Source: Polytrichum commune
Taxonomy: Eukaryota > Streptophyta > Polytrichopsida > Polytrichales > Polytrichaceae
Length of the DNA stretch: 64,000 nt
Reading direction: 5' to 3'
NCBI GenBank assembly: GCA_950295325.1
Contig: OX485807.1
Span: 23,345,666-23,409,665, forward strand
Shown: positions 34,057 to 51,998 of the stretch, piece after piece
Position numbering within the stretch: the stretch's first letter is position 1
How the letters are laid out: the number at the start of each line of letters is the position of its first letter
Position numbers and translations under genes: made by a program
Notes under the pieces: generated by a model
Told to the model about the DNA's origin: nothing
Seen by the model: the letters and a program-made list of their open reading frames with translations, nothing else
The model's database searches: none

Positions 34057-34400
34057 CCTCTCATAGGCTTTGGATGTGAGTACAATTCGATCCAACGGTG
34101 GGAGTTGTCACTGGTGCAGTAGTTGCTAGTGGAGAGTGAGGAATGGGTTGTACTAGACTATGTTCAAAATATCTGCAACCTTGTGGAATGTCAATACATA
34201 TTACACATCCTATTTTTGAAAATGATGGTATACAAAACCTAAGAGAGCTGTCAAAATTGTGAATGGTCTGCCTCACGTGTGCCCATGCCACCAACCAAAT
34301 CCAAGGAGAGGGTTAGTAATGCACACGAGGTGAATAACAACAAATTAAAACCCAATTGTTATCTATGTCACACAAACAAAAACAACATAATCATAAAACA
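34057..34400. repeat. Partial copy of dispersed repeat family (copies near 49.3, 57.3 and 58.4 kb)
   Basis: The stretch with GTCTGCCTCACGTGTGCCCA, CCACCAACCAAATCCAA, GAGGGTTAGTAA and CCCAATTGTTATCTATGTCA is closely matched at 57325-57440 and more loosely at 58405-58530. Confidence 0.75.
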
Positions 34401-34926
34401 CTATATTCGTTAAATTGAGACTTTCTCTAGTCTCAAATTAATATATGGATCAAAGAACTTGAAGAGGCCCGAAACTATATTGTCAACAATCTCAATTATA
34501 TTATATGTTCTAATATCCCAAATCTATGATGTGCGGACATAAGCACATATGGTAGAGCACTCGACACCAACTTCATCAACAAAAACACATTGGGTAGAGC
34601 ACTCCAAACAAGTTTCACCCAAAAAACATATAAACTGATTTCTATTATTAGCATGCACAATAGAATATAGACATTGCAACATACAAAGTGCATGTAATAA
34701 ATGCATATTTCTTCATTCGACAATATAGTCCCAAACATAATAATAAGATGAACTTCATTTTTTTTTGAAATATAGTAAATGGATATTCATCCAACTCCAA
34801 ACAATATAGTATTCGTAAGTTCTACCCAAACTCTGCCCCAATTTTGAAGAGCACACATATGTGTAATTTATATTGCTATAATTACATATTAAACTATAAT
34901 CATGCTAACACAATCCTACCAACTTC

Positions 34927-37900
34927 TCATTCAACGTGGGTTGCTTCTTGTGCAATCCGAGCAAGGTTGTCTTTTGCAAAAGTTATGTACTTTTGAGGGA
35001 TGGACACTGATCCACTATGGTTTTTCCGTGGTTTCCATGCTATGAATATGGAATCTGTATCTACCCAAGATGGACCGTGCTCAGAATCCACCTTCCACCG
35101 AAAGTTAGGGTTTGTATCCCAGCCTGTATAATGCCGAATCACATCTTCATTCCTTGCTGTCGGTCGATAGTACTCCACTTGTATCTGTCGAAAATGAGGG
35201 CTGGAAGTTACAAAATTGGGTTTGGACAAAGCTCTTGCCACCCACACTGGCTTTGCATATGTCTCGTCTCCAGGACGTAAAATGAGCATATAACCTTCAT
35301 GACAATCCACTGCAATGCGGAAAGATGGTGGTGGACGACTACTAGCCGGCCCCACGTAATGGTCGTCCACATCAAACTCCTCTCGAACCTCTCCATTTCC
35401 CAAAAGACTAGGCTCCGAAGCTTGTACATCGACTCGTGTTTGTGGCCAAAATCCATGCCTCAAAGTATGAGGGCTATCTTGGTGGAGGTCTGCCAAGGCG
35501 GCACGAACACGTGTCCAATAATGTATCCAACTCCCATAACGATGCCAACATGATCCGCCAACATCCGCTATTTTCAAACTCTCCCAATATTGTATGAAGC
35601 CTGATATACCTTTCAAAATATCCTCCAAATTCTTCATGGCTATTGGCTTGCAAGGCCTAGGCTCCCCATCCGGTAACATGGTCTTTCCATCCGCATCCAC
35701 GCGCCACACAAGAAGACCCTCCGGCGGGCTCCAGTCTTGTGTCGTGCACAACAACTTGTATTGCATGGCCGGGACACCATCGTCACGCATATAGAAGCGG
35801 AATTGTTGTGCCTTCGTATGCCCGATCAATCGGTGAGCTCCACTTCGAATATAAGGTTCTATAAATGCCTTGAAGTCTGGCACCTCCTCAATCATATGGG
35901 GGATGACCGGAACGTTATCCAAATCCATGTACGACTTCATCAATAACGGGATTGTAGGGAAATCCTCCTCCCGCAACTTCATGCTCCACCGCCCAAAAGA
36001 TGCATCAATATCATCGTGCGTGTGGCCTACCAATAGGAAGGACACAAAAACCTCCTTGAAAATGCCTTTCGCAACCAACAACGACCAATATGCAAAAACA
36101 TATCTACTTTTATTGTCCTTGGCACAATTGTCCAATTGGACACGCAAAGTGGGAGGCAACTTTTTGGCAATCACGGGATCACTGGGTGGCTCTGGCAACG
36201 AATGAAAGCATACATCTTTTCCATCCAACAACGCTTCATATAGAGGTGTTGAACCCGTGTTTTCAAATAACAATCCTGAAGAATAGGCTGGCGGTTTCTC
36301 TAAATCACGTAAAAGCCTTGCAAATGACCCTATTGTGTGGTTTGAATCCGCTGGATACAAATCAAGAGCATAATGAGCAAACTTGACATCACCGTGTCCA
36401 TGTGCAATCATTCCTGTAATGCCAACCCAACGTGATTAGATATAATTAAACCATTTTGAGTGAATCCATGTTCTCAAGTACATCACGGAATAAAAAACCA
36501 CAACATTTAGGATATGTCATGACATTGTTTCGAAGTTCACCTGTAACCGATACAGGCAACTTAAAAAACCCATCCGTGGCCTTGATTCGATTTGCAAAAC
36601 ATGGGGAGGCTGTTTTGGCATGGTCCATTTTATCATGGATGACCGTAAGAACCTCCAAGGGCCTGGAGATGGACAAAGCTCTATTTGTGTAATAATCATT
36701 ACGGTGTGCCTCTTGCATGTTTACGTGCTTGAAATAGTTCAATTGATGCGCTGCATATGACTCGGTACCCATCGTGTGTGCATCCCGGAGGCGCTTCAAC
36801 TTCTCGCAATTAGAGCACCTGGCAAATTTGTCCCCTTGTCTTTTTGTAATGTATTCGCTAAAGTTTTGTTTCTTAATTGCACTCAATTTTGACAATGAAA
36901 TTGGCTCCAACCCAATCTTCTCGCCAACTGCATTCACGTCCAACAATATGTCTTTCCATTTTGTGCCTGTGGGAAGAACTTTCTCCACAACCTTTTCACC
37001 GGTTGTGAGCGTGCGTGTTTTGTGCGGCATTGCATCGGCAAGGGGGACAATGATGGTTGCTAGAGTGGCCGTTGCTTGCCTTGTTGCTTCCCTAGGCTTC
37101 TTTAAACCCACATTACCATGGTGACGGGACCGGCGGCCTTCCTTGGCATAAGCAGCTTGTCGATAAAAGTCCGCTTTCGACACACCGTGAATGGTGTACC
37201 ATGCCTTACAACACACGTCCATGCTTTCAATGGTGATGACCTTGCGACCCATCCCATTCACATGTATCGCCCTATGGACATCAAGTTTTCTTGTGGATCT
37301 TAGACGGAAATCTCCAAGCCACATTTCTTCGCGGATGGCCTTCAATTTATCCCTTGGAAACAATTGGCAACAACGATGCACACAACAATCCTTTGTGGCA
37401 ACTTCTCTAATGGACTCCTCCCCGAGCAACCTTTGACGTTTACAATCAGTTGCAGACGGAGCAGGACGTGCCAATGTATCGTACTTTCTTTGACCCTTGC
37501 GCGGCCGCATGTTTGCTTGCACCTCCTTTTCGATTTGCATGTGTCGTTGCTCATGTTCACGCAAGCTAACTCCATCAATTGTGACATTCCTCAACGGCCA
37601 CCTGCGGAGGGAGAACCTATGAGTGGGATCCACCTCGGAATGAACGACCGACTCCAATATGACAACCCCAACGTCCTCGGTGCCAAGCGGGTTTTCATCA
37701 ATGCAATCTTGCGGATGGGTGTTACGGCAAATCCCCTCCGCCACAACAACTCCACTATCGTTAAGAAGTATCACCTCCAAATTCACCCACGAAGCCCTTG
37801 AAAGTCCCGTACATTCAACAATGGGACACTGCGGTACGGAAGACGAAGGTAAATCCAAATGATCTTCATCCGCACTGTCAGCCATAGTAGCCTCCCCGAC

Positions 37901-38005
37901 AATGTCTAAGTCATCATCAGATGCAGATGGCCAAGTGGCCATGTCATCAGATGACCAATCCCCAATTTCACTAAACCCATCCATTCTGCCTACACACATG
38001 AACAT
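34927..38005 (-). CDS. DUF7869-type protein, possibly transposase-derived, two exons, intact
   Basis: Exon 1 38005-36541 and exon 2 36413-34927 join across a 127-nt intron (36540-36414, GTGAAC...TTACAG) to one 983-residue frame, the junction reading SVTG|MIAHGHGDVK. Read separately, the frames would each end or begin artificially at this intron. The start could also be the ATG at 37984 (MDGFSEIGDW), since a possible acceptor lies just upstream. The N-terminal third is acidic, then basic. A cysteine pair (CSNCEKLKRLRD) precedes HDKMDHAKTASPCF (457-470), LDNCAKDNKSRYVF (about 582-595) and VGHTHDDIDASFGRW (about 617-631). I recognise this arrangement as the DUF7869 family of plants and algae. 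Spaced acidic motifs suggest an RNase-H-like, DDE-type core; that is inference. No inverted terminal repeats were found. Catalytic role unknown. Confidence 0.8.
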
Positions 38006-38470
38006 TGAACATTGTCAAAAAATCACAAAAATTGTAGGTTCAAATCGAAGACCACAAAAACCATCATATATAAACAAAATTGCAAATACTCAGTGCTCAT
38101 GCCTTTCCCACCTAGTCTCCTTTGGACGTTAATTCAAACCTTCTGACTCAATTTCCCGCTTCTTGTCAATAATAGACAATGTATATTTAGCTTGGCTCTT
38201 CGTTGCCCCAACCATCAAATGAATAATTCAACATATATTATTTAAAGTTGTTACCACCCTAACTTGGTCAACACTATTCTTCAACTCTTTCATAATTAGT
38301 TTTATACATGAATACACCACCACCTTCCCTATTGCCATCTCCTTTCTCCTTTTATCATTGTTGTATTTTTTTCTCACATCCTTACTAATACTAAATTCCT
38401 ATATGTAACTTCCATATATCACCACAGTGGATATTTAGTGTTTGAGTTTACATTTAATGTTACTTACTCT

Positions 38471-38604
38471 CATAGGGTTAGTAATAGGAAGTGTATGCGT
38501 TCGTTTTAAGTGTATCAAACACTAACTATCATATAACTAAAAAGGATATAAAGATTTTGATACACTACATATGAACGCATACACTGAATACCAATAACCC
38601 TGTG
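38471..38604. mobile_element. Small foldback element, 134 bp
   Basis: The arm CATAGGGTTAGTAAT...GTGTATGCGTTC...GTGTATCAAA is inverted as TTTGATACAC...GAACGCATACAC...ATAACCCTGTG. The arms of about 45-50 bp with a short AT-rich loop give a strong hairpin. No target duplication is evident. MITE-like. Confidence 0.75.
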
Positions 38605-40080
38605 ACAATATGTAAGATTATATCTATTAAGGGGTTTTACTCTACTTGTAGTCAAACATTATGGTATATTTCAAACAATATATTGACAAAAGATGTGCAT
38701 GTATTACAAAACTTCATATACTAAAAGTCACTAAAAGTCACTAAATATAATAGTTAATGCAATTACTTACACTCTCACATGAGGACTTATATTTTGAAAA
38801 CAAATAATTAATGCCATGACAAACTTGAATAATTTGGCCAACTTTCAATTTCCGCTAGTTAAAAGAACATCTGTTGTGTTGTAATGTGTGCACCCAATAT
38901 TGCTTCATCCTCAAGGCTCCAAGTGTGACAATAACCTAGTACCTATGTGGAAGTCATTAATGGAACCATAAACCACAAATGACATTTGGCACATTCAATG
39001 TTTCAATGATGTTTGAACCTATCGTGAAGTCCCTTGAACTCTAGCAATGTGTGTGAGCAAAACATGCAAAGTTCAAAAGGTATGTCCTCATATCATTCAC
39101 AACATGAAATCTACCTTAAATTAATATATAATATTTCACTATTCCAAATAACATGTTAACATGAACAACATCCTATCTATTATAATCTAGTTCTTATGCT
39201 CTTCTTACCAGGTGACAAGGTTATAGGTTAATATTGTATCACCTACTTGTGAGCACAATATCATTTATTTCCTTTAGTGCGTTCATTCGTGAAAAACCAC
39301 ACATCCATCTTTCACGTTCGTGAATTAGGATGTTGTGATGACATTATACATTTGTATTGGAAACTACAAGCACCAAGGCCCATGTCATTTGACCTATGTG
39401 CCATCCAGTTATGGTTTGTGTTGTTTAGGGTTTAGGGTTTAGGGTTTAGGGTTTAGGCATCATCAAACATCAAATTGAATGTTTAAATGACTTCATATGA
39501 TATGTGAACTCCATGGGGTTGCAGTAGATACATTTGTAATCATTTGTTTCTCCCATGTACTTCAAATGTGAACTTCTAAGTACATATATTAATGTTCACT
39601 CTAATGCTACTTGTTAGGGTATCCATTATAGACTAGAGCATTGTCCTCTACCAACAACCATCATATAAATTACAATACATAATCCTAAACTGTTAACCAT
39701 GTGAATGGTTACCATATTTATATTATTGCACCGTGTAATTGCCTTTGTGGATTGCAATATAATTATGACTTACTCCTCTTAGACTTTGTAACACTCTCAT
39801 ATGATTCCATAAATTACATTATTCATACACCAAAACGATAATGGCTACATTCTACGATGTTATCAATTCCAACGGGTGATCATTCAATTGAACACCATTA
39901 AAATATGAGTTGGCGATGGTGTTAATTTTGTGGAATACCTTAGTCCACGTAGGTTTTTGAGTGGTATTGAATTGCCGCTAATGAATAGCGGGTTAGAAGG
40001 CCGGGGCCGGGCGGCCAAGAGAGGCGCCGGCCCTCCTATGTCCCGCACCTAGGGGCAAGGACAACCAGGAAGGCAATCTG
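38605..40080. other. AT-rich intergenic stretch with interstitial telomere-type repeat
   Basis: At 39424-39457 there are four TTTAGGG units and a partial fifth, the plant telomere repeat. Otherwise no gene or repeat recognised. Confidence 0.6.
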
Positions 40081-40084
40081 CCTA

Positions 40085-40240
40085 GGGTGGCAGGTGTCAA
40101 CACCACAAGCCTCGCGGGCAACCACCTTAACCAAGGAGGTGTCGACACCTGGCAGGGTGTTGGCCCGCGAGGCTTCTGAGCCGTTGATGGGCCCGGCGCA
40201 ATCTAATGGCCCGGATTCGAGGGTTTAGGGTGACCCCTTC
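40085..40240 (+). promoter_or_regulatory. Promoter of the ParB-like gene: Site II and telo-box, no TATA
   Basis: TGGGCC at 40188-40193 and a telo-box GGGTTTAGGG at 40221-40230 stand just before a CT-rich stretch starting at about 40236. The Site II plus telo-box pair with a pyrimidine patch and no TATA is a common plant housekeeping promoter layout. A perfect 13-bp inverted repeat AAGCCTCGCGGGC/GCCCGCGAGGCTT (40107-40119 and 40163-40175) flanks a GGTGTCGACACC palindrome just upstream. Start site inferred, not observed. Confidence 0.5.
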
Positions 40241-40835
40241 CGCTCTCTCCTTCTCTCCCCTCCTCTTTTTTCTTTCTCTCTTTTTCTTCCTCTCTTCCTC
40301 CGCGCCAAGCGCCGCTCTTGGAAACGCCGCCGCCGCTTTCCATAGCGCCGCGCCAAGCGCTTCCTTTCGCACCTTTTGCTTTTGTCTTGGTCGCGCCGCT
40401 TCCTTTCATTCTTCTTTCTCCTTCATTCCTGTCCTCCTCTCTGATGCTTCTCCTCCTCTTCTCTCATTCTATTCCTCTTGTTATTGTCTTCCTCTTGTTA
40501 TTCTCTCTTCTTGGTCCAGAGTGTTAGCTTTGAGTGAGTTCGGAGCGGTTTATTGTGTTGAACTCCTTACTTGTTTTGTAAATTTCATGCATGGAGTGAT
40601 TTTAGGTTGAGTAGAAGTGAGCACGGTCGAGTGTGATAGAAAGGTAGAGGTCTTTCAAATTAGGCCTGAGTTTGCAAGAATCAGGGGGTTTGTGAGAAAG
40701 TTTTAGGGTGCTTGAGAGATTCATTGTGTTTCTGAGGTCTTTGTGAGAGTTGTTCTTTAGTGCCACAACAGAGTTTCTGAGTCTGGTTGTAAGAAGCAGA
40801 TTGTGAGAGCAGCTTTCAAGAGTTTGAAAGACAAG
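40240..40835 (+). other. 5' untranslated exon of the ParB-like gene
   Basis: CT-rich leader ending at a consensus donor ACAAG|GTAAGC (40835/40836). In the frame that would continue into the next exon there is a TAG at 40758-40760 and no ATG after it, so this exon is non-coding. The 134-codon open frame at 40206-40610 is probably a by-product of the pyrimidine-rich leader. Splicing to the acceptor at 41833 removes a 998-nt intron. Confidence 0.55.
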
Positions 40836-40957
40836 GTAAGCAATTTGCATCAGTGCACACAATTTGCATCATTCCCTTTAGGTTCCTGTTACATATACAA
40901 TGCATAAGCATTGTATATGTTGCCGAAGCATTAAACATGCATCTGGAAACACAGTAG

Positions 40958-41805
40958 TTTGGGGAGACGACCCAAACTCATATTAAAATATAATAAATAT
41001 TTGAATTGCAGCCTAAAATGAACTAAATGTTTGGGTCGATCGACCCAAACATTGCAGCGTCTTGTTTGGGTCGAGCGACCCAAACATTGCAGCGTCTTGT
41101 TTGGGTCGAGCGACCCAAACATTGCAACCTCTTGTTTGGGTCGAGCGACCCAAACATTGGAGCCTCATTATGTTTGGGTCGCTCGACCCAAACATTACAG
41201 GGAGAAGAAGTAAACCACATTGTAAAATATAAAAGAACTTTGAAAATGAAGTAAATGTTTGGGTCGTTCGACCCAAACATTGCAGTCTAAAATGAATGGG
41301 TTGAGCTTCCTAAACTTGCAGCCTCATCATGTTTGGGTTGCTCGACCCAAACATTACAGGGAGAAGAACAAACCACATTGTAAAATATAAAAGAACTTTG
41401 AAAATGAAGTAAATGTTTGGGTCGTTCGACCCAAACATTGCAGTCTGAAATGAATGGGTTGAGCTACCTAAATTTGCAGCCTCATCATGTTTGGGTCACT
41501 CGACCCAAACATTACACGGAGAAGAACTAAAACACATTGTAAAATATAAAAGAATTTTGAAAATTAAGTAAATGTTTGGGTCGTTCGACCCAAACATTGC
41601 AGTCTGAAATGAATGGGTTAAACTACATAAATTTGCAGCCTCATCATGTTTGGGTCGCTCGACTCAAACATTGCAGGGTGACCACCTAAACCATAATTTA
41701 AAATCTAAAAGATCTTTTAAAACGACTTTGAAAATTAAGTAATGTTTGGGTTAATCCTCCAAATGTTAAATGCACATTGCAATACTTTGGGTCGATCGAC
41801 CGAAA
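40958..41805. repeat. Array of 13 palindromes in the leader intron
   Basis: Consensus TTTGGGTCGNNCGACCCAAA. Copies start at 40958 (19-nt variant), 41030, 41065, 41100, 41135, 41173, 41258, 41332, 41416, 41490, 41575, 41649 and 41786. The first perfect ones are 35 bp apart. From 41173 to 41670 copies sit in a tandem repeat of about 158 bp, two palindromes per unit. Central dinucleotides vary (AT, AG, CT, TT) while most arms are intact. The array lies wholly inside the intron 40836-41833. Confidence 0.95.
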
Positions 41806-41833
41806 CTCACAGTTTCGATTTCTTGGGTTGCAG

Positions 41834-43159
41834 ATGGCCCCTAAAAAGAGACCAGGTGAAAGGTGGTTCATGCTCGCGCCAGACCACCTTTGGCAGGAGT
41901 ATGAAACTCCACAGGACGATTCTTACGTCCCAAAAGATGGCGTCGTTCTGGCATGGTCCGTTCAGGTGGTGAAGGCATCCATGTTCAAGCTGCTATTCGT
42001 GGTGAAGGTGGGGACCCACGAGCAGCACACCTGGGCAACGCTGACGGGATGGGAGGTTGCGTCTGTCCAGTCTCTCGGGGACTATGTAGACGTCATACTG
42101 GAGAACTCCGCCGTGCAGAACGTCCACATGTTCATGCACCAGTTCTCCGAGCCCTTCGACCCCCTGTACGCCAAGGAGACCTGCGTCGACCCTGAAACCA
42201 TACAACCGGAGGCCATATTCATAGATGGCAGTGTAACCAACACGAAGGTTGCGAGCAGGTTCACGAAGTTAAAACAGGCCATCACGGTTCTAAACAAGGC
42301 GCTGCAAAGCAAACCCAAGACACAACAGCCTGTGAGGTGGAAGGCACCGACGGAAGAAGGCGCAGGGTCCTCAAGACCACAAACTGTGAGGAAACCGCGG
42401 GCGGTCCCTGTGGAGTCGAGACGGACAAGTACTACAACAACGCCGGCTGATAGCGAGACGCCAACGCCATCAACAAGCCGTCAAACGACCCCTTCCAAAA
42501 GGGGAAGAGAGTCATCGGTGATGACTGACGAGCCTGTTTCCCCGGAGCTCCGGATGCCGAAGCCTGGCCAGGAGGTGGATGCAGGCGAAATACAAAAAAT
42601 AAACACCAACTTCGAAACAAAATGCCTGCACTGCTTCTTCATGGGCAGGGACTTCAAGTTCGAGGTCAACATTGCGCAGTGCCACCTTGCGCCACCCGAG
42701 AAATGTGTCCGAGCCAAGGAGGACGCCTACGTCGACTGGATGGTCGCTCAAATCTTGGGCGGGCAGTTCAAGGACGACAGGCAGACGATTGTTGTCATGC
42801 CACAAGGGTTGAAGAGAATGCCGACGCCTGATATGTGGCCGACAATCTCCAAAGGAGACTTCTAGTTGATTGACGGGCAGCACAGTGTGGAGGCATAAAA
42901 AAAAATCCAGCTGATGACCGAGTGGAACGACCCGAACAACCAGAAGGAGAAACTAAAAGTTTGGAAGGCTTTGGTGGTTTGGTCGGACAACGAGACGGTC
43001 CTCAGCGACATCTCCAGGTTCTTCAACATGGGGAACAAAAAGAGGGCCTATCAGGCATCGTGAATCAGAAACATCATGGCCTCGTGGGAGGTGTGGGAGT
43101 TTTATGGCAGGCCTCCCAGGGAAAGGGAGAATGCTAAAGATAAGAACCCCAAATGGGAG
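41834..43159 (+). pseudogene. ParB-like (DGQH-type) exon of a ParB/methyltransferase-like gene, three in-frame stops
   Basis: Begins at the ATG directly after an acceptor (GGGTTGCAG|ATGGCC, MAPKKRPGERW) and ends KWE|GTGAGT, phase 0. Residues 1-150 are an unrecognised globular part; about 155-260 are Thr/Pro/Ser/Arg-rich and probably disordered. From about residue 265 the pattern is that of a ParB N-terminal domain: a conserved start with HLAPPEKC, a central VAQILGGQF...IVVMP, then LIDGQHSVEA at 42866-42895 and a tail with LSDISRFFNMGNKK. The frame is interrupted by TAG 42863-42865, TAA 42896-42898 and TGA 43061-43063. Coding-like sequence continues in frame to the donor, so these look like recent damage, readthrough or assembly errors. 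ParB-like calling rests on motif pattern only. Confidence 0.6.
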
Positions 43160-43168
43160 GTGAGTATG

Positions 43169-43302
43169 TTTGGGTCGACCGACCCAAACTCTTTCATTGT
43201 TTTAGTGTCTTCAACAAATTCATAGTTTGGGTCGCTCGACCCAAACTCTTGCATGGCTTTGTTGTCTTTACCAGGTTTATAGTTTGGGTCGATCGACCCA
43301 AA
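43169..43302. repeat. Three palindromes in intron 2
   Basis: Perfect-arm copies at 43169-43188 (centre AC), 43226-43245 (CT) and 43283-43302 (AT), spaced 57 bp apart, within the 206-nt intron 43160-43365. Confidence 0.95.
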
Positions 43303-43365
43303 CTGCTGTTTCATTTGTTATTCCATGAGATGTTGTCTAACATGAATTGTTGGCTACGTGTGCAG

Positions 43366-46300
43366 GACTTCAAATATCAGATGATCAATAAATTCTCCTC
43401 GATAGATAATGCTAGCCACAAGCAAAAAAAATATAACGAGTTGCGAGGAGAAATATATTTGATCACCACGTCCGACTCCGTGTGGGGAAAATGGAGGAGT
43501 GTTTTTGAAAAACACGAGACGGGGGACCTTATGGACCCCGACACCGGCATGCTCTTCAACCAGACTACGCGCTTCAAGCAAATGAAGCCTCTGGTGAGGG
43601 AGTTCTTCAGAGCGCTTCAAGGTCTTTCCGAGACAGAGATGGGAAAAGCGGCGTCCCACATCCTACACGTGGAGACGACGGCGAAGAGATGCTGGGTCCA
43701 CCCCAAGATCGTCTTCACCAAACCCAAGATCTTCGTCCCTTCATGCTACACCATGAAGGAATGGACGGAGAACAGGAAGAAGAAGACGACCATCGTCCAA
43801 GAGCTGCACAAGCTGGTGCCCGAGAAGAAGCTCATCGTGGACGGAGAGGTCGACGAGGCGCACTGGAGGGCCTTCAAAGCCGAATATAAGTTCACCAGTG
43901 CGTCCATGGCGGCACTCATGAGGGAGGCGGGAGACGACTTCCTCAGATCCAAGCTCGTGAAGGGGGGGAGGAACCGGGTGCTTCCCGAACACTCAGCGCG
44001 GGCCTTCTCCAACTTCATAAAGGAGAAGAAGATCGTCAGTTTCGAAGGCGATGCGCAATTCAACATGGTCACCGTCGAGCCTCTCAGGATCCAAGGTTGG
44101 CCGGGCTCTGAGTCCAGGAAGGCGATCAGGACTAAAGCCGGGGACCGCTTCCCCTTCGGAATGATAGACTTCAGGAATATCCCTGGAGCCTCATTCGAGG
44201 GGACTATGAGCACCCCTTTTTACGATGCTTTCTTGTCGAAGTTCGTGGACTACGCCAGCCCCAAATTCAGGGAGGTCGACGTCTGGCTCTGGATTGTCGA
44301 GGACAGGAGGGCAGAGCAGGTTTACGAGATCGTGCGCAAATTGCAGCCGGAGTATGCCGTCTCGAAATCTCACTACGTTGCTGCACCGGCGGAGGGGGCG
44401 TACAACACGTTGAAAGACAAGAAGACGAAGATCGTCAACGTGTTGTGCTTGTACTTCGTGTACAAAGCTGATCTACTTAAGGTGCCCAACCATCCTATAG
44501 CCAGGATGGAAAAGCTCTTCCAAGTCCAAAAAGGGTTGGGTACCAGCAGGAGCTTGTATGACGAGGCGAAGTACGCCAACTACCCCGCGGATGAGCTGCG
44601 CATGGAGTTCTACCTGCGGATGATGAGGACCCTCACCAAGAGAGGGGACTGCATCTTCAACGTTTTCGGGGGATCCAAACCGATTTTTGCAGCAATGGTA
44701 AGCAAAGAACCCTGAAAGCCCTATACGGACGGTTTGGGTCGAGCGATCCAAATTGTGTTTGCCCCTAGTTTGGGTCGAGCGACCCAAACTGTGCACGCCC
44801 TAGTTTGGGTCGAGCGACCCAAACTGGGTATGCCCATAGTTTGGGTCGCTCGACCCAAACTGTGCATGCCCTAGTTTGGGTCGCTCGACCCAAACTAACT
44901 ATTCTTATTTTATTTTGGATGTCATTTTTCCTTACTCTTCATTAGTTTATACTAATACTATTGATTTGGATTGTGCAGATGTCTGGGTTGAACATCTACT
45001 CCTATGTGGAGGATGCCGATGTTCAATTTTACAGGACCCAGAAGGCACTGGCCAAGAAAATGGACATCCTTGACTGGATACCCGGATCCTACGTTGAAGA
45101 GATAGTCGAGGGGGGCGAGAATCCTTTGGATATGGCGAGGCGAATCAACCCGGGTGAATTCGCCATGCGTGCCCCCGTTCAATTGCCAAAGCCGCTCATC
45201 GGGTTGCATCCGGGCAATCCGTCGATGGGAGCAGGTGGCGAGGTTGGGGAGGAGGGGGGGGAGGAGGAGGAGGAGGAAGCAGAGAAAGTGGAGGGGGAGG
45301 TGGAGGAAGGGGCAACAGGATTCACTCAAGAATCCGAGGCCCCTCAGCGGAAGAAGGCCATGCGGGCTGCCACGCCGCAAAGCAGGCTGGTGCCCGCGTT
45401 GACGGTGGACGACGCGAAGGACATGTACTCGAGGGACGCGACGGCCACCTTCAGGGAGCGGAGAAGGATGAAGGGGAAGAAGCTGTACGGGGACTATGCG
45501 GTGGAGGAGACAATCGCAATAAGCTCAGAGGACGAGGACGACATGGAACTCGCCAAGAGGCTGAGGTCGGATCCTGCCTCCCCCAGAGCGTTCGCCGGGA
45601 ATGTGAGGGTGAAACCGGAGGTCCTCACCGTGGAGGAGGCGAACGCAAAAATGCTCCGAGACGAGGAGCAGCGTGTGCGACTGCAGAGGGCTGCTGCCGA
45701 GGAACCCTCGGTCCGCAACGAAGTGGCGGAGTTGAGGGCTCTCCTGTTGGAGCAGGAGCGGCAAAGGGCGATGGCCCAAACTCCGTCCCAAGCGGAGCTC
45801 ATCACGCAAGTGATCCAGGGCATGCTGGCGCAGGGATTGGTGATGGCTCCCCCGAGTTCATTCCCGCACTTGCCCGCAGGCTTCCCGCCACAGGATATCG
45901 CCCCGCGGCCCACGCTGCAGCATTCCTTCAGCTTCGCACAGTTGCTGCAGCCGCACGCCCGTCCTTACGCGCCCGTCCAGCATGTGGACGACCCCAACCT
46001 TTGGCGCATCCCCGGTGCGTCCAGCTCGTTGGCGCCCCCGCCGCTCCGGCCTCCCATCCTCTCGCCCCCACACCACCAGCGGGACGACCCCCACATGTTT
46101 GGGTCGTCCGACCCAAACAGTGCCGACGTTGCAGCGTCCCAGAGCGACGCTCGCCAAGCAGCAGGGTTTGGGTCGGCCGACCCAAACCCCGTCCCCGACC
46201 AGAGCCCGGTGGACGAGGGCATGTTAGACGTTGAAGGCCCGCAAGGGCCTGGTGATACCTCTACTCCTAACCCAGTCGATGAACCAATGCATGATGCGCA

Positions 46301-46448
46301 TGCGGAGGTTGGGTTGGGACAAAGGCCTGACAGTCAGCCTTTGCAGGAGCAGGTTGCGGCTGACGTCGTCGTCGGAGGCGGCGGTGACAGAGGTGGGGCA
46401 GCGCAGGCGATGCCGGCATCAACGTCGTCAAGGCACGACCAAGGCGAG
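43366..46448 (+). CDS. Methyltransferase-like segment and disordered tail of the same gene (exons 43366-44697, 44979-46448)
   Basis: Exon 43366-44697 starts after TGTGCAG and ends AAM|GTAAGC; exon 44979-46448 starts GTGCAG|ATGTCT and ends GAG|GTAATG; both are open and phase 0, 934 codons. The end of the first exon reads ELRMEFYLRMMRTLTK then CIFNVFGGSKPIFAA, and the next continues MSGLNIYSYVEDADVQF. This resembles the target-proximal helix, motif I and following acidic position of beta-class DNA N4/N6 methyltransferases, where motif IV precedes motif I. The position expected for DPPY reads DFRN (44167-44178) and FxGxG reads FGGSK, so activity is doubtful. The second exon then has a Glu-rich run, KPEV, a coiled-coil-like stretch near 45650-45780 and a Pro-rich tail with two FGSxDPN motifs. 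GC-rich relative to flanks. Fold assignment is inference. Confidence 0.5.
44733..44894. repeat. Five palindromes in intron 3
   Basis: Copies at 44733 (one mismatch), 44769, 44804, 44840 and 44875, each 20 bp, at a regular 35-36 bp spacing and separated by related linkers (TGTGCAxGCCCTAG type). They fill the intron 44698-44978 near its donor side. Confidence 0.95.
46098..46186 (+). repeat. Two palindromes inside coding sequence
   Basis: TTTGGGTCGTCCGACCCAAA at 46098-46117 and TTTGGGTCGGCCGACCCAAA at 46167-46186, both in the same reading frame, encoding FGSSDPN and FGSADPN 23 codons apart in the Pro-rich tail. Confidence 0.95.
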
Positions 46449-46470
46449 GTAATGCACTGACCCCACTCAG

Positions 46471-46490
46471 TTTGGGTCGGTCGACCCAAA
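46471..46490. repeat. Single palindrome in intron 4
   Basis: TTTGGGTCGGTCGACCCAAA about 22 nt downstream of the donor at 46449. It is the last copy with perfect arms that I find in the window. Confidence 0.95.
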
Positions 46491-46967
46491 CTCCATGGGT
46501 CTTTGTCTTCTTGCCTTGGTCGTGTCCCCTAGCTACCCTAAACTCACACACACGTCGCCCCCCCCCCCCCCGGCACTCGCGCCCTTCGCCACATCCCCCC
46601 GACCATTCGTTCGTCCACCTACCCCGGCTTGCGACGAAGTCTTCATCACGGCGGCCCGTCTCTTCAAATTTTCTTAGATTTAGAAGTAGGCTAGTTTGAA
46701 CGCATCGTTCAACGCGGCTCCCCCCAATCAAAATGTACATAGAGCATTGTATACAATACAATCACCATTTTTGACTCCTATATACTTGTATATTGTGTTT
46801 GAATGTATTTTGTATGCTCTTGTCTCTCTTGTATCCCTTGTTGCACCCCCCTCCAAAATGAATCAATTGGTTTTGTGTTTGCACCAAGAACACTCGTTTC
46901 CTTAATGCTTCGTTTGGACATAGCATGACATAAGTCGCCCACCGTTTTCTCTCGCTCGTATCCGCAG

Positions 46968-47785
46968 GGCTCGGAGCATAGCGTAGCGGCTCCCCGACGC
47001 TCTTCTCCAAGGAGCGCAGAGGGCAGCACGGCGGCCCCCCCGGTTTTACCCGCCCCGCCCCGCCCCCGCTGCCGAAGAAACGATTCCTGGTGTTAGACCT
47101 GAACGGTGTCCTCGTGCAGTGCGTTCATTGCCCTAGGGCCCCCACAGTGCCCTTTTGCAAGCCCGAGGATGCTAATTACGACGGGCCGCCCACGTTCATA
47201 AAGAGCAAGCTAGTTCACCTCCGCCCGTGGCTTCGGACCTTCCTCCAGATCGCCCAACAACGATGGTGGGTGGTCGTGTGGAGCTCCATGACGGCCGAGA
47301 ACACCAATGCGGTCGTGGAGTTCATCTTCAAGGGCATCGAGCCCCCCTGCATGGTCCTAGCACAGGAAGCCTGTAGAATATTGTACACACAGGACGGCAA
47401 AGTCGTCAAAAAACCAAACAACCCCGCTTCCCCCCAATACCTCAAGGTCTTGAAGCCCATTTTTTGGGACCAGCGACCGTCCTTGATAGGCGTCCCCTAC
47501 GACGTCCGCCCCACCCGCGAGAACACGCTCATAGTGGACGACAGCGCCGCAAAGAACATGTTGAACCCGACGGCCAACTTCATAGTGTGCCCTACCTGGA
47601 CGGTCGAGAAGGTCCGGGACCGATTTTTGTTAGACCTTAGTAAATACCTCCAGGCGCTCTGGGGAAGCGGACTTCCCGTAAACAATTTTGTTAGGAATAA
47701 TCCCATAGGCGAGAGATACTTGGATCCACGAGACCATTTGTACAGAGAGTTGTTATCTCACGCGAAATTTAACAAGCTCATTTGA
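46968..47785 (+). CDS. FCP1/NIF-like HAD phosphatase
   Basis: The frame reads KKRFLVLDLNGVLV with the HAD motif I Asp at 47096-47098 (second position Asn instead of Asp, as in several plant FCP1-like proteins), VWSS (motif II, 47276-47287), a Lys before PIFW, and DDSAAKN (motif IV, 47537-47557), ending HAKFNKLI and TGA at 47785. These motifs fit a Mg-dependent Ser/Thr phosphatase of the NLI-interacting/CTD-phosphatase type. The strongest acceptor is CCGCAG at 46967. The Ala/Pro-rich sequence after it is in the phase expected from exon 46448, but the phosphatase is one frame off, with the shift in the C-rich run near 47050-47068. Alternatively a weaker acceptor at 47026 keeps frame. Whether it is fused to the upstream protein or separate is open. 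Confidence 0.7.
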
Positions 47786-47928
47786 GACAGTACGTGTGTT
47801 TGTATGTGCGTGTGTGTATATGCGCCTGCCCATTTTGTGTAATTTACGCTTCATATGTATCTTGATTTTCACGCGCTCTATCTCCCCCCTTTTCCTTGGG
47901 TTTTGTTTTGTTCCAATTTTGGCTCCAG

Positions 47929-48738
47929 CGTTTGGAGCCCTCGATTGACGTCGTCAGCGAGTCAGACTTGGGGAGCTTCTTCTACGAGACCGTTTACGAC
48001 GCCGCGTCAACCATCGACTACTCCAAGGAGCCTCTTGACGCCGGCGTCGTCGATAGCCCCCCACCCAAGCAAATCTTCCGGCGATCTGCGTCCCCGTCAC
48101 CGTTCAAAGGCATAAATCGCAAATGCGTCCGGACATCCCCCTCTCGGCCCGGCGGCAGTAGTACACCTCAACGGCGGCTGCGGATGGACGCTCGGCCTAC
48201 GAAGAGTGGAACCCTTCCTATTCCTTTGCGGGATGCCTTGCCCCTCCTCGCCAACTCCGACGGGAACGCCCCCGGTGACAAGGTGAACCCCCCCCAACCC
48301 CCCCAAAAAACATGGTTATCCGCGCATTACAATCATTTTGCACTTAAAAAATGATCGTGTGACACGTTTGGGTCTTCCTCCCTAAACTAACACATGTGTT
48401 CTTGCGTTGACGCGTTGCAGGTTGCTCCCACCCGTAAACCTATGCGGTCTAGTGCGTCCATCGAGTTGGAGCGTTTCTACTCCATGACCAGAAATGCAAG
48501 ACAATCCACTTCATCGTATTCAAATTCTTCGTCGTATAATTCGGGCGGCCGACGGAATACAAAATGTGTTATTGATGGCGTTCACCCCAAGAATGGCTAT
48601 AGTCGCGGGGCGGAGATTTTCAGGAATGTTGAAGCAATGCGAGCAAAAGAAGCTGCAGCAAAAGAAAAAGAGGCAAAAGAAAAAGAGGCAAAAGAAAAAA
48701 AAGCAAAAGAAAAAGAGGTAGTATCCGAGGCTAGATAG
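47929..48738 (+). CDS. Two further phase-0 exons, Ser/Pro-rich then Lys/Glu-rich; unrecognised
   Basis: Exon 47929-48282 follows CTCCAG (RLEPSIDVVSESD) and ends GDK|GTGAAC. Exon 48421-48738 follows GTTGCAG (VAPTRKPMRS) and runs into a repeat of AKEKE units, then VVSEAR and a stop. Alternatively it is spliced at KEKE|GTAGTA (48717), again phase 0. No domain recognised; the first exon is probably disordered with phosphorylatable SP/TP motifs, the second ends as a charged helix. Junction style matches the upstream exons, so these may be the 3' part of the same gene, although no donor is seen after the phosphatase exon, whose frame ends at 47785. Confidence 0.5.
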
Positions 48739-49123
48739 GCCATAGTAGGCGTAGGGTTTTGGGCCATAGGCAAGAACATTTTGGGTCGCACTATCCAATG
48801 CATGTGTGGTGTTAGCATGATATGCATTTTACATGCCATACTTTGTATGTTTTTTTTTGCAATAATACAAGTTAGACATGATTTCCCCTTCCATATGGTC
48901 TAAGGTTTGGATTGCCCTACCTAAACCATCACAAATATGAGTTTGGAATATTTTGTATGCAATATTATATTGGTTAACATATTAACCCTTCAATAAGATC
49001 TATGGCTTGGATTGCCCTACCTAAACCATATTCATACAAGCTCTAATATTTTGTGTGCAATAATATGAATGTTTTAAGGTTTCCCCTTAAATGTGGTCTA
49101 AGATTTGGATTGCCCACCCTAAA
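48366..49123. repeat. Decayed palindrome-like units downstream
   Basis: Sequences of the type TTTGGATTGCCCTACCTAAA occur at 48906-48925, 49006-49025 and 49104-49123, about 100 bp apart, with half-like forms near 48366 (TTTGGGTCTTCCTCCCTAAA) and 48783. They keep TTTGG...CCxAAA of the palindrome but have lost its TCG/CGA core. Common origin is inference. Confidence 0.45.
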
Positions 49124-49259
49124 CCATCACAAATATGAGTTATTTATGGGGTTCTTGGTCTAAACACCTGCTTCAAAGTGTTCGCATCTTACAACTTTCT
49201 CCAATATGTGTTCCATTTATCCTTGTTCTTATTTATGTGAATGTCTCAAAATGCCCAAA

Positions 49260-49740
49260 AAGTCTCAATTTAACGAATATAGTGTTATAAGTTTTGTACC
49301 CATGCATATTCAAAATAATATTGAGTATTCTACCTCATCCTTAGTCATTGAGACTTGTGTGACTGAAAAATGAGGTTGTTAGTATACACCACCCACAAGT
49401 CCGCACATTATTCACTAAACCCCAACGTTAGGGTAAACTGCATATGCGGCTTAACCTTGGAAAGGAGGATCTTATGTCTCCTTCCTCTTAATATAGTATT
49501 AGGTAAACATTCTTGTCCATAGATGCATGTTGTTGGATCTATGGTGGATATTACCTAGATAACCCTTTTCAGATCCTAGAGTAATAACTCCTTTGGGGTT
49601 ATGTTGAGAGAGAGAGAGAGAGAGAGATTATTTTTTTCTCCTCCTTTAAATTTTCTTAAACCTTAGATTTGCATCTATTCCTTGTATGTGTGTCATTTCC
49701 TAAATTCCTAGATTATGTGGTGCAATCCCGAAGTGTATAC
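49260..49740. repeat. Dispersed repeat copy with internal (GA)n
   Basis: Shares with 57470-57830 the ordered words GAGTATTCTACCT, CTTAGxCATT, CATATGCGGxTTAACCT, GAAAGGAGG, CTTAATATA and TTAGGTAAA, then a GA run (49605-49628). The stretch after the run, ATGTGGTGCAATCCC, is shared with the copy ending near 59020. Confidence 0.75.
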
Positions 49741-50294: not shown

Positions 50295-51032
50295 GAAGAT
50301 TTCTTAAAAGATTTTTTTCATATTTATCCATTCAAAAGCCATGTTTCTGTAAAAAAAACACGGATAATACCGGTTATGTTTGATGATTTACATTTGGTGA
50401 TAATATTTCTACCTAGTGAATTACGACACGGTTGTCGTTGCTCCCCTAGTATCATATCAAACCTTGGGTAATGTTTGTCAAAATAAGCTTGCCATGCTGA
50501 GGACTTGACTTAATTGAACATCTAAAATTAAAAAGTATAGATTTACACTACAACTTAGACGTTTTCCTCCCACATAAGGACCCTACCCTTGAGTGGAGAT
50601 AACGTTGTGCTGACTAGAAGACTATTGGGATCTACCGTGTTGTTTACACCTAGACTTGTACCCTGGTGGGTACCCTTGGTCTGGGCCATGTTGGTGTCCC
50701 TGCTAGCGTCCCTGCTCCCATACCCTGCATGGTTGAAAAAACTAGGGTTAGGGTTACGAAAGTTAACTCGTCTGCTACCTCTTCCGCGGAAGCCATGGCT
50801 ACCACGAGTTGGGCTACCTCCTCGGCCACTAGGGCTGCTACGCCCTCGTCCGCTCAATAAAGCTCTATCAACTGGGGAGGAATTCAGGTTGATTCTCTGC
50901 TTTTTGAAAGGTGATGGTGTCTTATTGGGTGACGTGGATGTGTAAGGGAGAACTTTGGACCATTGAGCAATCTTTTAATTTTGTTGGCAATAGGTGTCTC
51001 CTTGATGTCAGTGAGTAACCTTTGGCTTGGAT
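50295..51032. other. Stretch without supported gene
   Basis: A minus-strand frame at 50857-50555 begins with an Arg/Gly/Ser-rich stretch (SGRGRSSPSGRGGS) but no domain follows, and the complementary strand is equally open. I do not call it a gene. Confidence 0.35.
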
Positions 51033-51998
51033 TGTTGCGCACCTCTTCATGAGGAGTGCCCGAAACACCATGGGCACAAGGGGGGCCCCAGAGTGACACG
51101 TGGGACTTGTGGCGCCCTTGGTGAGAGGGCCCAAGTGATCCTAATGTGGGGAGGGCCCCGGGCATTGGGAACACCTCCCACCCATGGAGACTAGGAGGCA
51201 CAAGGGTAAGGCTATCAGTTATGCGTATCTTATGGCGTGTAGGTTCTAGAATGCTCAAGAACACCTCAATCGGAGGTGTGAGCTAGGAGTTATGGGACAG
51301 CTAGGAGTCCTGCGACAGCGCCTTGGTACAGCAGTGGCCTAGGAGTGGCTCTCGCGATTGCCAAGGTTTGAACAGGCATAACTTCCTTAGTAATTGCCCA
51401 AATGAGGCAAGTGAGGAATCCAACGGCATCTACGTGAAGCGTACATGAAGATGGAGTGGTTGCTTGTTAGCATCAAAGATCACATAAGGAAGTTATGATG
51501 GTTTGAAGCTGCTAGGGGCTTCTAGGCCCAGCGGCTAAGAGAAAATGTCTACTTGGCCCCAATTCTTGGTAGAGAGACAAAAGGTTTCTTGACGATGGGG
51601 TAGGGGCCCCGCCTAGAGTTCTAGAGGCTTACACGAGTAAGGTGGTGTGGCCTCACCCACCCAAGGCCAAACGGCACGGCCTACATGGGTTTTTGCCCAA
51701 TGTGAGGGCATAGTTACCTAGTATGCTTTGGGTTGTTGTAGTGTTGTTCCGGCAATGCGATGATCAACATAAGATTGGACTTCCATGGATGGAAGTCCAC
51801 ATACAAGAACTAGATACCGATTAAGGGGTGGGTCCCTAAAACAAAGTAGGAGGGTTGGTTCCCTTCTTATGAACTATAAGGTCCAGGGTAGGAGGAGCTA
51901 ACCATCAGCATGGCGGAATGCGAAGGGTTAGCGCTTGTAACCTTTGCTAGACATAAAAATTGGCAAGATTGTTAAGGGGGCTAGCAAGGATTGCGACA
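51033..51998. mobile_element. LTR-like direct repeat, copy A
   Basis: Begins TGTTGCGCACCTC and ends CTAGCAAGGATTGCGACA, i.e. TG...CA. It is matched along its length by 61481-62805: ATGAGGAxTGCCC, AACACCATGG, GGGACTTGTGGCGCC or GGGGCTTGTGGCGCC, AACACCTCCCACCCA, GCTAGGGGCTTCTAG, GTTGTTGTAGTG. Length is about 0.97 kb. No primer-binding site or intact internal gag/pol was recognised, so a retrotransposon is only one reading; the copies may be independent relics. Confidence 0.6.

Follow-up and report, generated by a model that had tools for sequence, protein, structure and literature searches.

An unusual spliced gene of the moss Polytrichum commune belongs to a DNA transposon that carries family-specific palindromes

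What is a spliced gene with a ParB-like stretch, a methyltransferase-like stretch and an FCP1-like phosphatase domain doing in a moss nucleus? The question arose from a 64,000-nt stretch of the Polytrichum commune assembly GCA_950295325.1 (contig OX485807.1, positions 23,345,666-23,409,665, forward strand), hereafter the window, in which a first-pass annotation had described such a gene as an acquired or element-borne module now spliced as a plant gene. Comparison across the genome showed that this odd gene is gene 2 of a DNA transposon with terminal inverted repeats (TIRs), 15-17 kb long and present in many copies. The ordinary part of the answer is that a transposon gene was mistaken for a plant gene; the unusual part lies in how gene 2 is composed and, still more, in palindromes that differ between families of the element.

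The genome searched comprised 407.8 Mb, its contigs being numbered C1-C7 in the copy names, and ten further copies were taken with 20 kb each and compared with the window copy. Similarity to the window copy began at 34397 and ended at 49286, within a few bases. In the window, the 28-bp TIR sequence was found at two places only, with 0 expected by chance, and TIRs stood at the exact ends of nine two-ended copies, the window copy included, being perfect in eight and carrying one mismatch in C6_37.59. Perfect 4-bp direct repeats, differing in sequence (ATAA, TTAA, TTTA, CATG, AAAT, CCTA, TATA and ATTT), flanked eight of these nine; the sole two-ended copy without one, C6_9.70, adjoins another copy. 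Two of the ten copies, C1_57.10 and C3_13.80, showed no left end within the sequence read. The eight two-ended copies other than that of the window measured 16,030-17,417 bp, the longest containing an insertion of ~1 kb, and a sister copy 99.9% identical to the window copy lies ~100 kb away on the same contig with a target duplication of its own, ATTT. A DNA search of the genome with the part of gene 2 encoding its phosphatase-like (NIF) domain gave 465 candidates, and the 40 that were scored were all at least 98% identical. Because TIRs at the exact ends, 4-bp duplications and dispersed near-identical copies occur together, the locus was assigned to a TIR transposon. The proposal that the gene is element-borne was thereby upheld, while its description as a plant gene proved misleading, the gene being that of a high-copy transposon and broken in the window copy; a stand-alone host gene was ruled out by the genome search. 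The parts of the window copy are as follows.

34393-34396, left target-site duplication ATAA, the same 4 bp as at 49287-49290
34397-49286, whole element, 14,890 bp, its similarity limits being the TIRs in nine two-ended copies
34397-34424, plus strand, left TIR, 28 bp, beginning AACACTATATTCG, a perfect match to the right end
34927-38014, minus strand, gene 1, DUF7869 protein, probable transposase (PF25273, E = 4.7e-43)
38099-38100, deletion point, where the other eight two-ended copies have 1.2-1.7 kb
40836-41833, plus strand, putative 5'-untranslated-region (5'-UTR) intron of gene 2, GT...AG, with 12 palindromes, placed by its sequence borders
41834-43159, plus strand, gene 2 exon A, encoding the N-terminus and the ParB-like DGQHSVEA stretch, placed by translation and by the other copies
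43366-44697, plus strand, gene 2 exon B, methyltransferase-like, with DFR for DPPY and NVFGGSK for motif I, 444 open codons
44979-46448, plus strand, gene 2 exon C, acidic, coiled and proline-rich, placed by translation
46968-47785, plus strand, gene 2 exon D, NIF/FCP1-like, with DLNGV for DxDx(T/V) (PF03031, E = 2.1e-15)
47929-48282, plus strand, downstream open reading frame (ORF) E1, a possible further exon, the same frame being open in 11 of 11 copies
48421-48738, plus strand, downstream ORF E2, with lysine/glutamate repeats, its frame varying between copies
49259-49286, minus strand, right TIR, 28 bp, inverted copy of the left end
49287-49290, right target-site duplication ATAA, pairing with 34393-34396

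The layout first described for gene 2 agreed with the translation of exons A-D, which are GC-rich, have GT-AG borders, are joined in phase 0 and carry the named motifs in order: LIDGQHSVEA at 42866-42895 in exon A, KRGDCIFNVFGGSKPIFAAM at the end of exon B, and LDLNGVLVQ, VVWSSM and VDDSAAKN in exon D. In the window copy, exon A is interrupted by three in-frame stops (42863, 42896 and 43061) and exon D has a broken reading frame; these stops and this break, like the DUF7869 gene, the TIRs and 23 palindromes, are features beyond the first-pass annotation. Exons A-D were present in all ten other copies read, without stops in six for exon A, six for exon B (a seventh, C6_37.59, being open in a different frame beside a 1-base gap) and five for exon C, and open in nine for exon D. 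Three copies, C3_15.27, C6_41.72 and C6_9.70, were stop-free in all four exons, the match to exon B of C6_9.70 reaching one base short of the exon end. Since exons A-D recur in ten of ten copies and in relatives at 25-86% amino-acid identity, chance is excluded as their source. These relatives are grouped below into the family of the window element (fam1), fam3 (L043 and L044) and fam2 (L042, L045 and L127). The ORF E1 is set beyond the stop after exon D, and an E1-like piece is also found in the distant fam2. Exon D and E1 of the window (46968-48282) differ by ~1% from subfamily II, with exons A-C differing by 4-5%, for which gene conversion or recombination between elements is a possible reading.

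Gene 1 consists of two long ORFs on the minus strand, at 36446-38014 and 34927-36435, and is divergent from gene 2. The genome holds 1,491 candidate places for DUF7869, and the 150 that were scored fell into several families. When gene 1 was aligned with two other families, the stretches IxDxMD, QxDNCxx(D/E)NK and VGHTHxDxD were kept. Because stretches bearing aspartate (Asp) are retained across the three families, we infer that the gene 1 product is probably an RNase-H-like transposase with catalytic Asp residues, acting at the TIRs.

The recurrent palindrome of the element, GTTTGGGTCG-NN-CGACCCAAAC, is 22 bp long, with 10-bp arms and a 2-bp centre. Counted at up to 3 arm mismatches, it was found 23 times in the window, in each case inside the element, against 0 expected, at the following places.

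41029-41806, 12 palindromes, putative 5'-UTR intron
43168-43303, 3 palindromes, intron A/B
44732-44895, 5 palindromes, intron B/C
46097-46187, 2 palindromes, exon C, in frame, encoding FGSSDPN and FGSADPN
46470-46491, 1 palindrome, intron C/D

Exons A, B and D of the window copy contain none, and the exon C pair, 69 bp apart, is also present in fam3. The eight other two-ended copies carry 29-36 exact palindromes each in total, of which 11-18 lie upstream of gene 1 in ~78-bp units, that is, within the 1.2-1.7 kb deleted from the window copy; no exact palindrome was found outside the element in the stretches read of the eleven copies. Across the genome, 9,731 exact inner 20-mers were counted and the reversed-pattern control gave 0. 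By hand count, 81 of the first 100 of these sites lie in three full-size clusters with the element layout, and the viral contigs held 0 copies of the palindrome. Arrays of the fam1 palindrome in 32-bp units also occur in L046 (C1:474500-479499), and 98-bp tandem repeats containing GGTTTGGATTGCCCTACCTAAACC, which resembles a decayed palindrome, occupy 48851-49135 of the window.

How the sites have been kept was seen within and between families. Over the 32 sites of one intact copy (at most 3 mismatches each), the arms were mismatched at 6 of 640 positions, and the centre took nine different forms. Synonymous sites of fam1 and fam3 have diverged by 0.75 to >1.5, and by eye introns A/B and B/C look unalignable away from the splice borders; the palindromes persist in these introns, a few of them with one mismatch (again by eye). 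Because the arms are constant, the centre is free and there is no room for an RNA loop, the palindromes would suggest that double-stranded DNA is bound by a protein of two-fold symmetry.

One palindrome sequence, with a free centre, is common to fam1 and fam3, and different ones are used in fam2 and in a further family, fam4. That of fam2, TTTACGGACG-NN-CGTCCGTAAA, forms a tandem array before exon A, recurs in introns A/B and B/C and has a decayed form close to where exon C ends; the sites listed have CG or TG at the centre. That of fam4, CCCACGGGTG-NN-CACCCGTGGG, has 7 sites with at most 1 arm mismatch, located upstream of gene 1, directly before the ORF, in a putative intron and downstream; L129, related to fam4, has 6 palindromes before its gene. 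The DUF7869 ORF of fam4 is 692 amino acids long and is 42% and 34% identical to gene 1 in two pieces, and the 17 kb read yielded no gene 2. As fam4 has palindromes with no gene 2 in that stretch, the palindrome accompanies DUF7869 elements and not gene 2 alone. Seven copies of another palindrome, AGAGGCCTCGGATCCGAGGCCTCT, spaced alternately by 128 and 179 bp, lie at ~70-1020 of L127, just beyond the left end of the fam2 element, and are maybe the code of another family.

What gene 2 encodes was then compared with known proteins. Exon D belongs with certainty to the NIF family, scoring 57.2 bits on PF03031, whose cut-off is 21.8. The catalytic motif expected of NIF/FCP1 phosphatases is DxDx(T/V); the first motif reads DLNGV in fam1, fam2 and fam3, with the DD motif present. 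The FCP1-like phosphatase named at the outset thus stands at the family level, while catalysis is doubtful because the second active-site Asp is asparagine (Asn), and the NIF part is probably a pseudo-phosphatase. In exons A-C, no ParB or methyltransferase match and no family over its cut-off was obtained from Pfam, PHROGs, NCBIfam or PADLOC, the scans including intact copies for Pfam and PADLOC. These curated libraries returned sub-threshold rows to other families only, the best being YEATS in the N-terminal part of fam2 exon A (L042, 3544-4830; E = 0.017, 15.5 bits where 22 are required), which was absent in fam1. As a chromatin-reader domain, YEATS would suit an effector role of gene 2, the row itself being below the cut-off.

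A profile of phage ParB-methyltransferase fusions was built from 78 proteins, taken from seven of nine phage records and 71 of 80 viral-contig loci. In the profile-profile comparison, the two best local alignments were colinear, the phage ParB motif being matched by DGQHSVEASKK and methylase motif I by LTKRGDCIFNVFGGSK, with prebuilt-profile scores of 28.1 and 27.5. Column shuffling, repeated 150 times, attained the top score 4 times and the sum once, and never the second score or the sum with colinearity. Of the controls, 17 single sequences of joined phage proteins peaked at 24.9 (none reaching the top score), the reversed alignment gave 14.7 and gene 1 gave 15.7. When the families were used singly, the ParB motif came first in fam2 (27.7), and motif I in fam1 (30.0) and fam3 (27.8). 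The second motif stayed at control level in single sequences (ParB at 18.6 in fam1, and at 20.4 and third in fam3), and motif I was not among the top three matches of fam2 alone. The first profile comparison, with 7 phage proteins, had given P = 0.083, and with 78 proteins the values were 0.015 and 0.02; a single match alone is not significant, since shuffles topped out at 31.2 and 28.1 in 100. With the phage profile in hmmsearch, gene 2 scored no better than shuffles. Single-sequence folds had a predicted local distance difference test (pLDDT) of 34.8 for exon B and 31.9 for the ParB-like stretch, too low for fold searches. A search of solved structures by sequence returned none for exon B, and four rows for the NIF part and one for gene 1 at chance level (E at least 0.31). 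Exon B gave 20 chance-level rows against the phage records, and neither for it nor for the NIF part was a relative confirmed in the viral contigs.

At the residue level, the methylase catalytic position reads DFR in fam1, fam2 and fam3, (D/N)PP(Y/F/W) being absent, so that the degeneracy first noted as DFRN for DPPY is a conserved trait. NVFGGxK of fam1 and fam3 aligns with motif I, the Gly after GGS being replaced by Lys. The ParB-like motif is DGQHS in fam1, fam2 and L044, DGQYN in L043 and DGQHV in L038, the expected Arg being absent. Of the ParB and methyltransferase identities first proposed, what stood after comparison with profiles and folds is a modest colinear profile-profile signal; family matches, hmmsearch and the predicted folds lent them nothing. 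The two identities are plausible, not proven, and the two parts are probably the product of distant descent with lost catalysis, not members of these families.

The families also allowed the age and constraint of gene 2 to be estimated. Exons A and B of fam3 share 83-86% identity with those of fam1, exons C and D 71-76%, and the amino-acid identities of fam2 to fam1 are 34.5% in A, 36% in B, 25% in C and 41% in D. The fam2 element measures 17,327 bp, has a TIR closely similar to that of fam1, identical over its first 16 bases, and a target duplication TTGT, and contains, as fam1 does, both gene 1 and gene 2. As the order ParB-like, methyltransferase-like, acidic and NIF is kept in this relative at 25-41% identity, the domain order of gene 2 is, on this comparison, old within the element. 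Leaving out codons with stops and pieces around frame breaks, the ratio of nonsynonymous to synonymous substitution (dN/dS) between fam1 and fam3 was 0.04-0.06 in exon B and 0.18-0.19 in exons C and D, synonymous sites being saturated in exon A and in the first 57 codons of B (L043). The values for subfamily I against subfamily II were 0.09-0.10 for exon A, 0.06-0.07 for exon B, 0.22 for exon C (from one pair) and 0.15-0.24 for gene 1, exon D being too alike for the estimate. Judged by these ratios, the coding sequence of gene 2 is under strong purifying selection. A DUF7869 gene in L038 lies beside a divergent DGQH ORF that is ~28% identical to exon A (E = 6e-4); because the two adjoin there, the gene pair may predate the TIR family.

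The explanation that we favour, and rate as probable by a modest measure, is that the element is a DUF7869 transposon whose private palindromes are bound by one of its own proteins in self-regulation or anti-silencing, gene 2 being an effector. The binding protein, more likely that of gene 1 than that of gene 2, would sit on the palindromes as a two-fold symmetric dimer, and the sites, multiplied through tandem duplication, would mark the element's own promoters and introns. The element could in this way regulate itself or resist silencing, leaving relatives with another palindrome untouched. Gene 2 would be an accessory, combining a ParB-like part, a catalytically dead methyltransferase-like fold and the NIF pseudo-phosphatase, and would probably serve the element as a chromatin or transcription effector. 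Gene 1 is preferred as the reader because the fam4 palindromes occur without gene 2 in 17 kb. As to history, we suggest tentatively, and rate as somewhat less likely than not, that a transposon lineage may have held family-private 10-2-10 palindromes with a co-evolving reader, each kind marking and shielding no element but its own, and that some of its members may have added gene 2 as an effector from a bacterial-type ParB-methyltransferase fusion that had lost its catalysis and been joined to the pseudo-phosphatase.

Several points weigh against this explanation. The remaining 19 of the first 100 palindrome sites fall outside the three full-size clusters and form small arrays, and no piece of an element gene was detectable in the 5 kb of L046, whose arrays may be either a non-autonomous derivative or an unrelated use of the site. 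For fam4, no element ends could be located and the stretch read lacks the fam1 TIR, so this family may form a separate lineage; gene 2 could also act on fam4 from elsewhere. In the more distant L038/L039, which have a DUF7869 gene, no recurrent palindrome was seen in 3.6 kb. Finally, the probable transposase role is based on a family of unknown function and on conserved Asp residues.

Could gene 2 itself read the palindromes, acting in a eukaryote as ParB does on clusters of parS-like sites? Its ParB-like part would then grip the palindrome, and the dead methyltransferase and the pseudo-phosphatase would act on chromatin. We consider this rather unlikely, and gene 2 as the sole reader was demoted on the fam4 evidence, fam4 having its own palindrome around a DUF7869 gene that stands alone in the 17 kb read. 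Gene 2 and palindromes do occur together in fam1, fam2 and fam3, many sites lying in or just before gene 2, the profile comparison yielded a ParB-like signal, and the constraint on exon B exceeds that on gene 1. Full-length fam1 copies, however, place 11-18 sites upstream of gene 1, and the Arg expected after DGxH is Ser in fam1, fam2 and L044, in a protein that matches no ParB family. That the palindromes work as intronic RNA hairpins, with a part in splicing or small-RNA control, instead of as sites in DNA, appears improbable: each is self-complementary and 21 of the 23 in the window lie in putative introns, yet a hairpin loop needs more than a 2-nt centre and even so the innermost C-G pair shows about the same conservation as the other positions, two copies are exonic, and fam4 sites are found both upstream and downstream of the ORF.

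Two further readings concern the origin of the locus. A bacterial or phage ParB-methyltransferase module acquired by the plant, now a spliced host gene joined to a phosphatase, would agree with the weak colinear similarity to phage fusions; the high copy number with TIRs and target duplications, the broken window copy, the presence in one genome of several families at 25-86% identity and the searches of phage records and viral contigs with exon B, which found no close relative, make it very improbable. An endogenous virus or virus-derived element is scarcely credible. Its large size and unusual enzyme-like cargo might suggest one, whereas the TIRs with 4-bp duplications do not, only two long genes were seen, NIF and DUF7869 were the sole Pfam families over cut-off among the proteins scanned, the viral contigs contained no relative of exon B or the NIF part, and the ORFs scanned point toward no capsid, polymerase or packaging genes.

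Other features of the window are recorded here. Inside the element, between the divergent genes 1 and 2, lie five tandem GTTTAGG units (39423-39457), which we take to be plant telomere-type repeat. A dispersed repeat at 51031-51998 is ~86% identical to a ~970-bp insertion in the sister copy (C5:23.29 Mb), which it splits at the point equal to window position 46500, and is also ~86% identical to two places beside copy C3_15.27. On the minus strand, an ORF at 2253-2597 has a weak Myb-like match (E = 0.0096, below the cut-off) and presumably resembles a plant G2-like factor.

Self-recognition through short private motifs is described, in the parts of PMC5735166 and PMC10398659 available to us, for one group of Arabidopsis transposons. 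If our explanation is true, the moss element would be a second design, in which large palindromes occupy thousands of sites and several families in one genome have codes of their own, which would suggest that such systems arise repeatedly in evolution, and it would offer a direct route to test the joint change of protein and site code. DUF7869, a family of unknown function, gains a plausible role, and a conserved plant reading frame with enzyme-like domains is seen to be possible transposon cargo, a trap for gene annotation.

Among known systems, Sola and other DNA transposons have TIRs and a 4-bp target duplication, as does the moss element; we know of no Sola-type transposon with cargo of this kind, and the literature, covered by titles and abstract openings on DUF7869, ParB, FCP1/NIF, Sola and moss transposons, held no description of this element. 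Gene 2 shares with the NIF/FCP1 phosphatases (SCP, dullard-like; PF03031) a match over the cut-off and the DD motif, and differs from them in fam1, fam2 and fam3 by DLNGV, with Asn for the second Asp. Like the phage ParB-methyltransferase fusions, it has a ParB-like motif followed by a region ending in a motif-I-like FxGGxx; unlike them, it has no family match, has DFR for DPPY in three families, lacks the ParB Arg, is ~4 times longer over exons A-D together, is spliced and continues into a NIF domain. In ParABS, ParB acts on clustered parS palindromes, and the moss element likewise has clustered palindromes near a ParB-like gene; it differs in being a nuclear transposon, in its 22-bp sites with a free centre, and in the palindromes of fam4, which have no ParB-like gene in the stretch read.

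The closest parallel in behaviour lies with the VANDAL transposons, which are Mutator-like and have target duplications longer than the 4 bp of the moss element. In the VANC-VANDAL system of Arabidopsis, as far as the accessible part of PMC5735166 describes it, an element protein binds a private short motif that forms tandem repeats in introns and upstream regions, the motif of VANC21 being the 9-bp one-directional word YAGTATTAY; VANDAL families differ in their motif (PMC5735166, PMC10398659, each in the part available). The moss element likewise has family-specific arrays of a private motif in introns and upstream regions, 22-bp palindromes taking the place of the 9-bp directional motif in that described system. 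VANC is compared here by its described behaviour, with no kinship claimed, exons A-C of gene 2 having no Pfam match over the cut-off. By this analogy, the palindromes look like family-specific dimer-binding sites through which the element could recognise itself, comparable with the anti-silencing of VANC.

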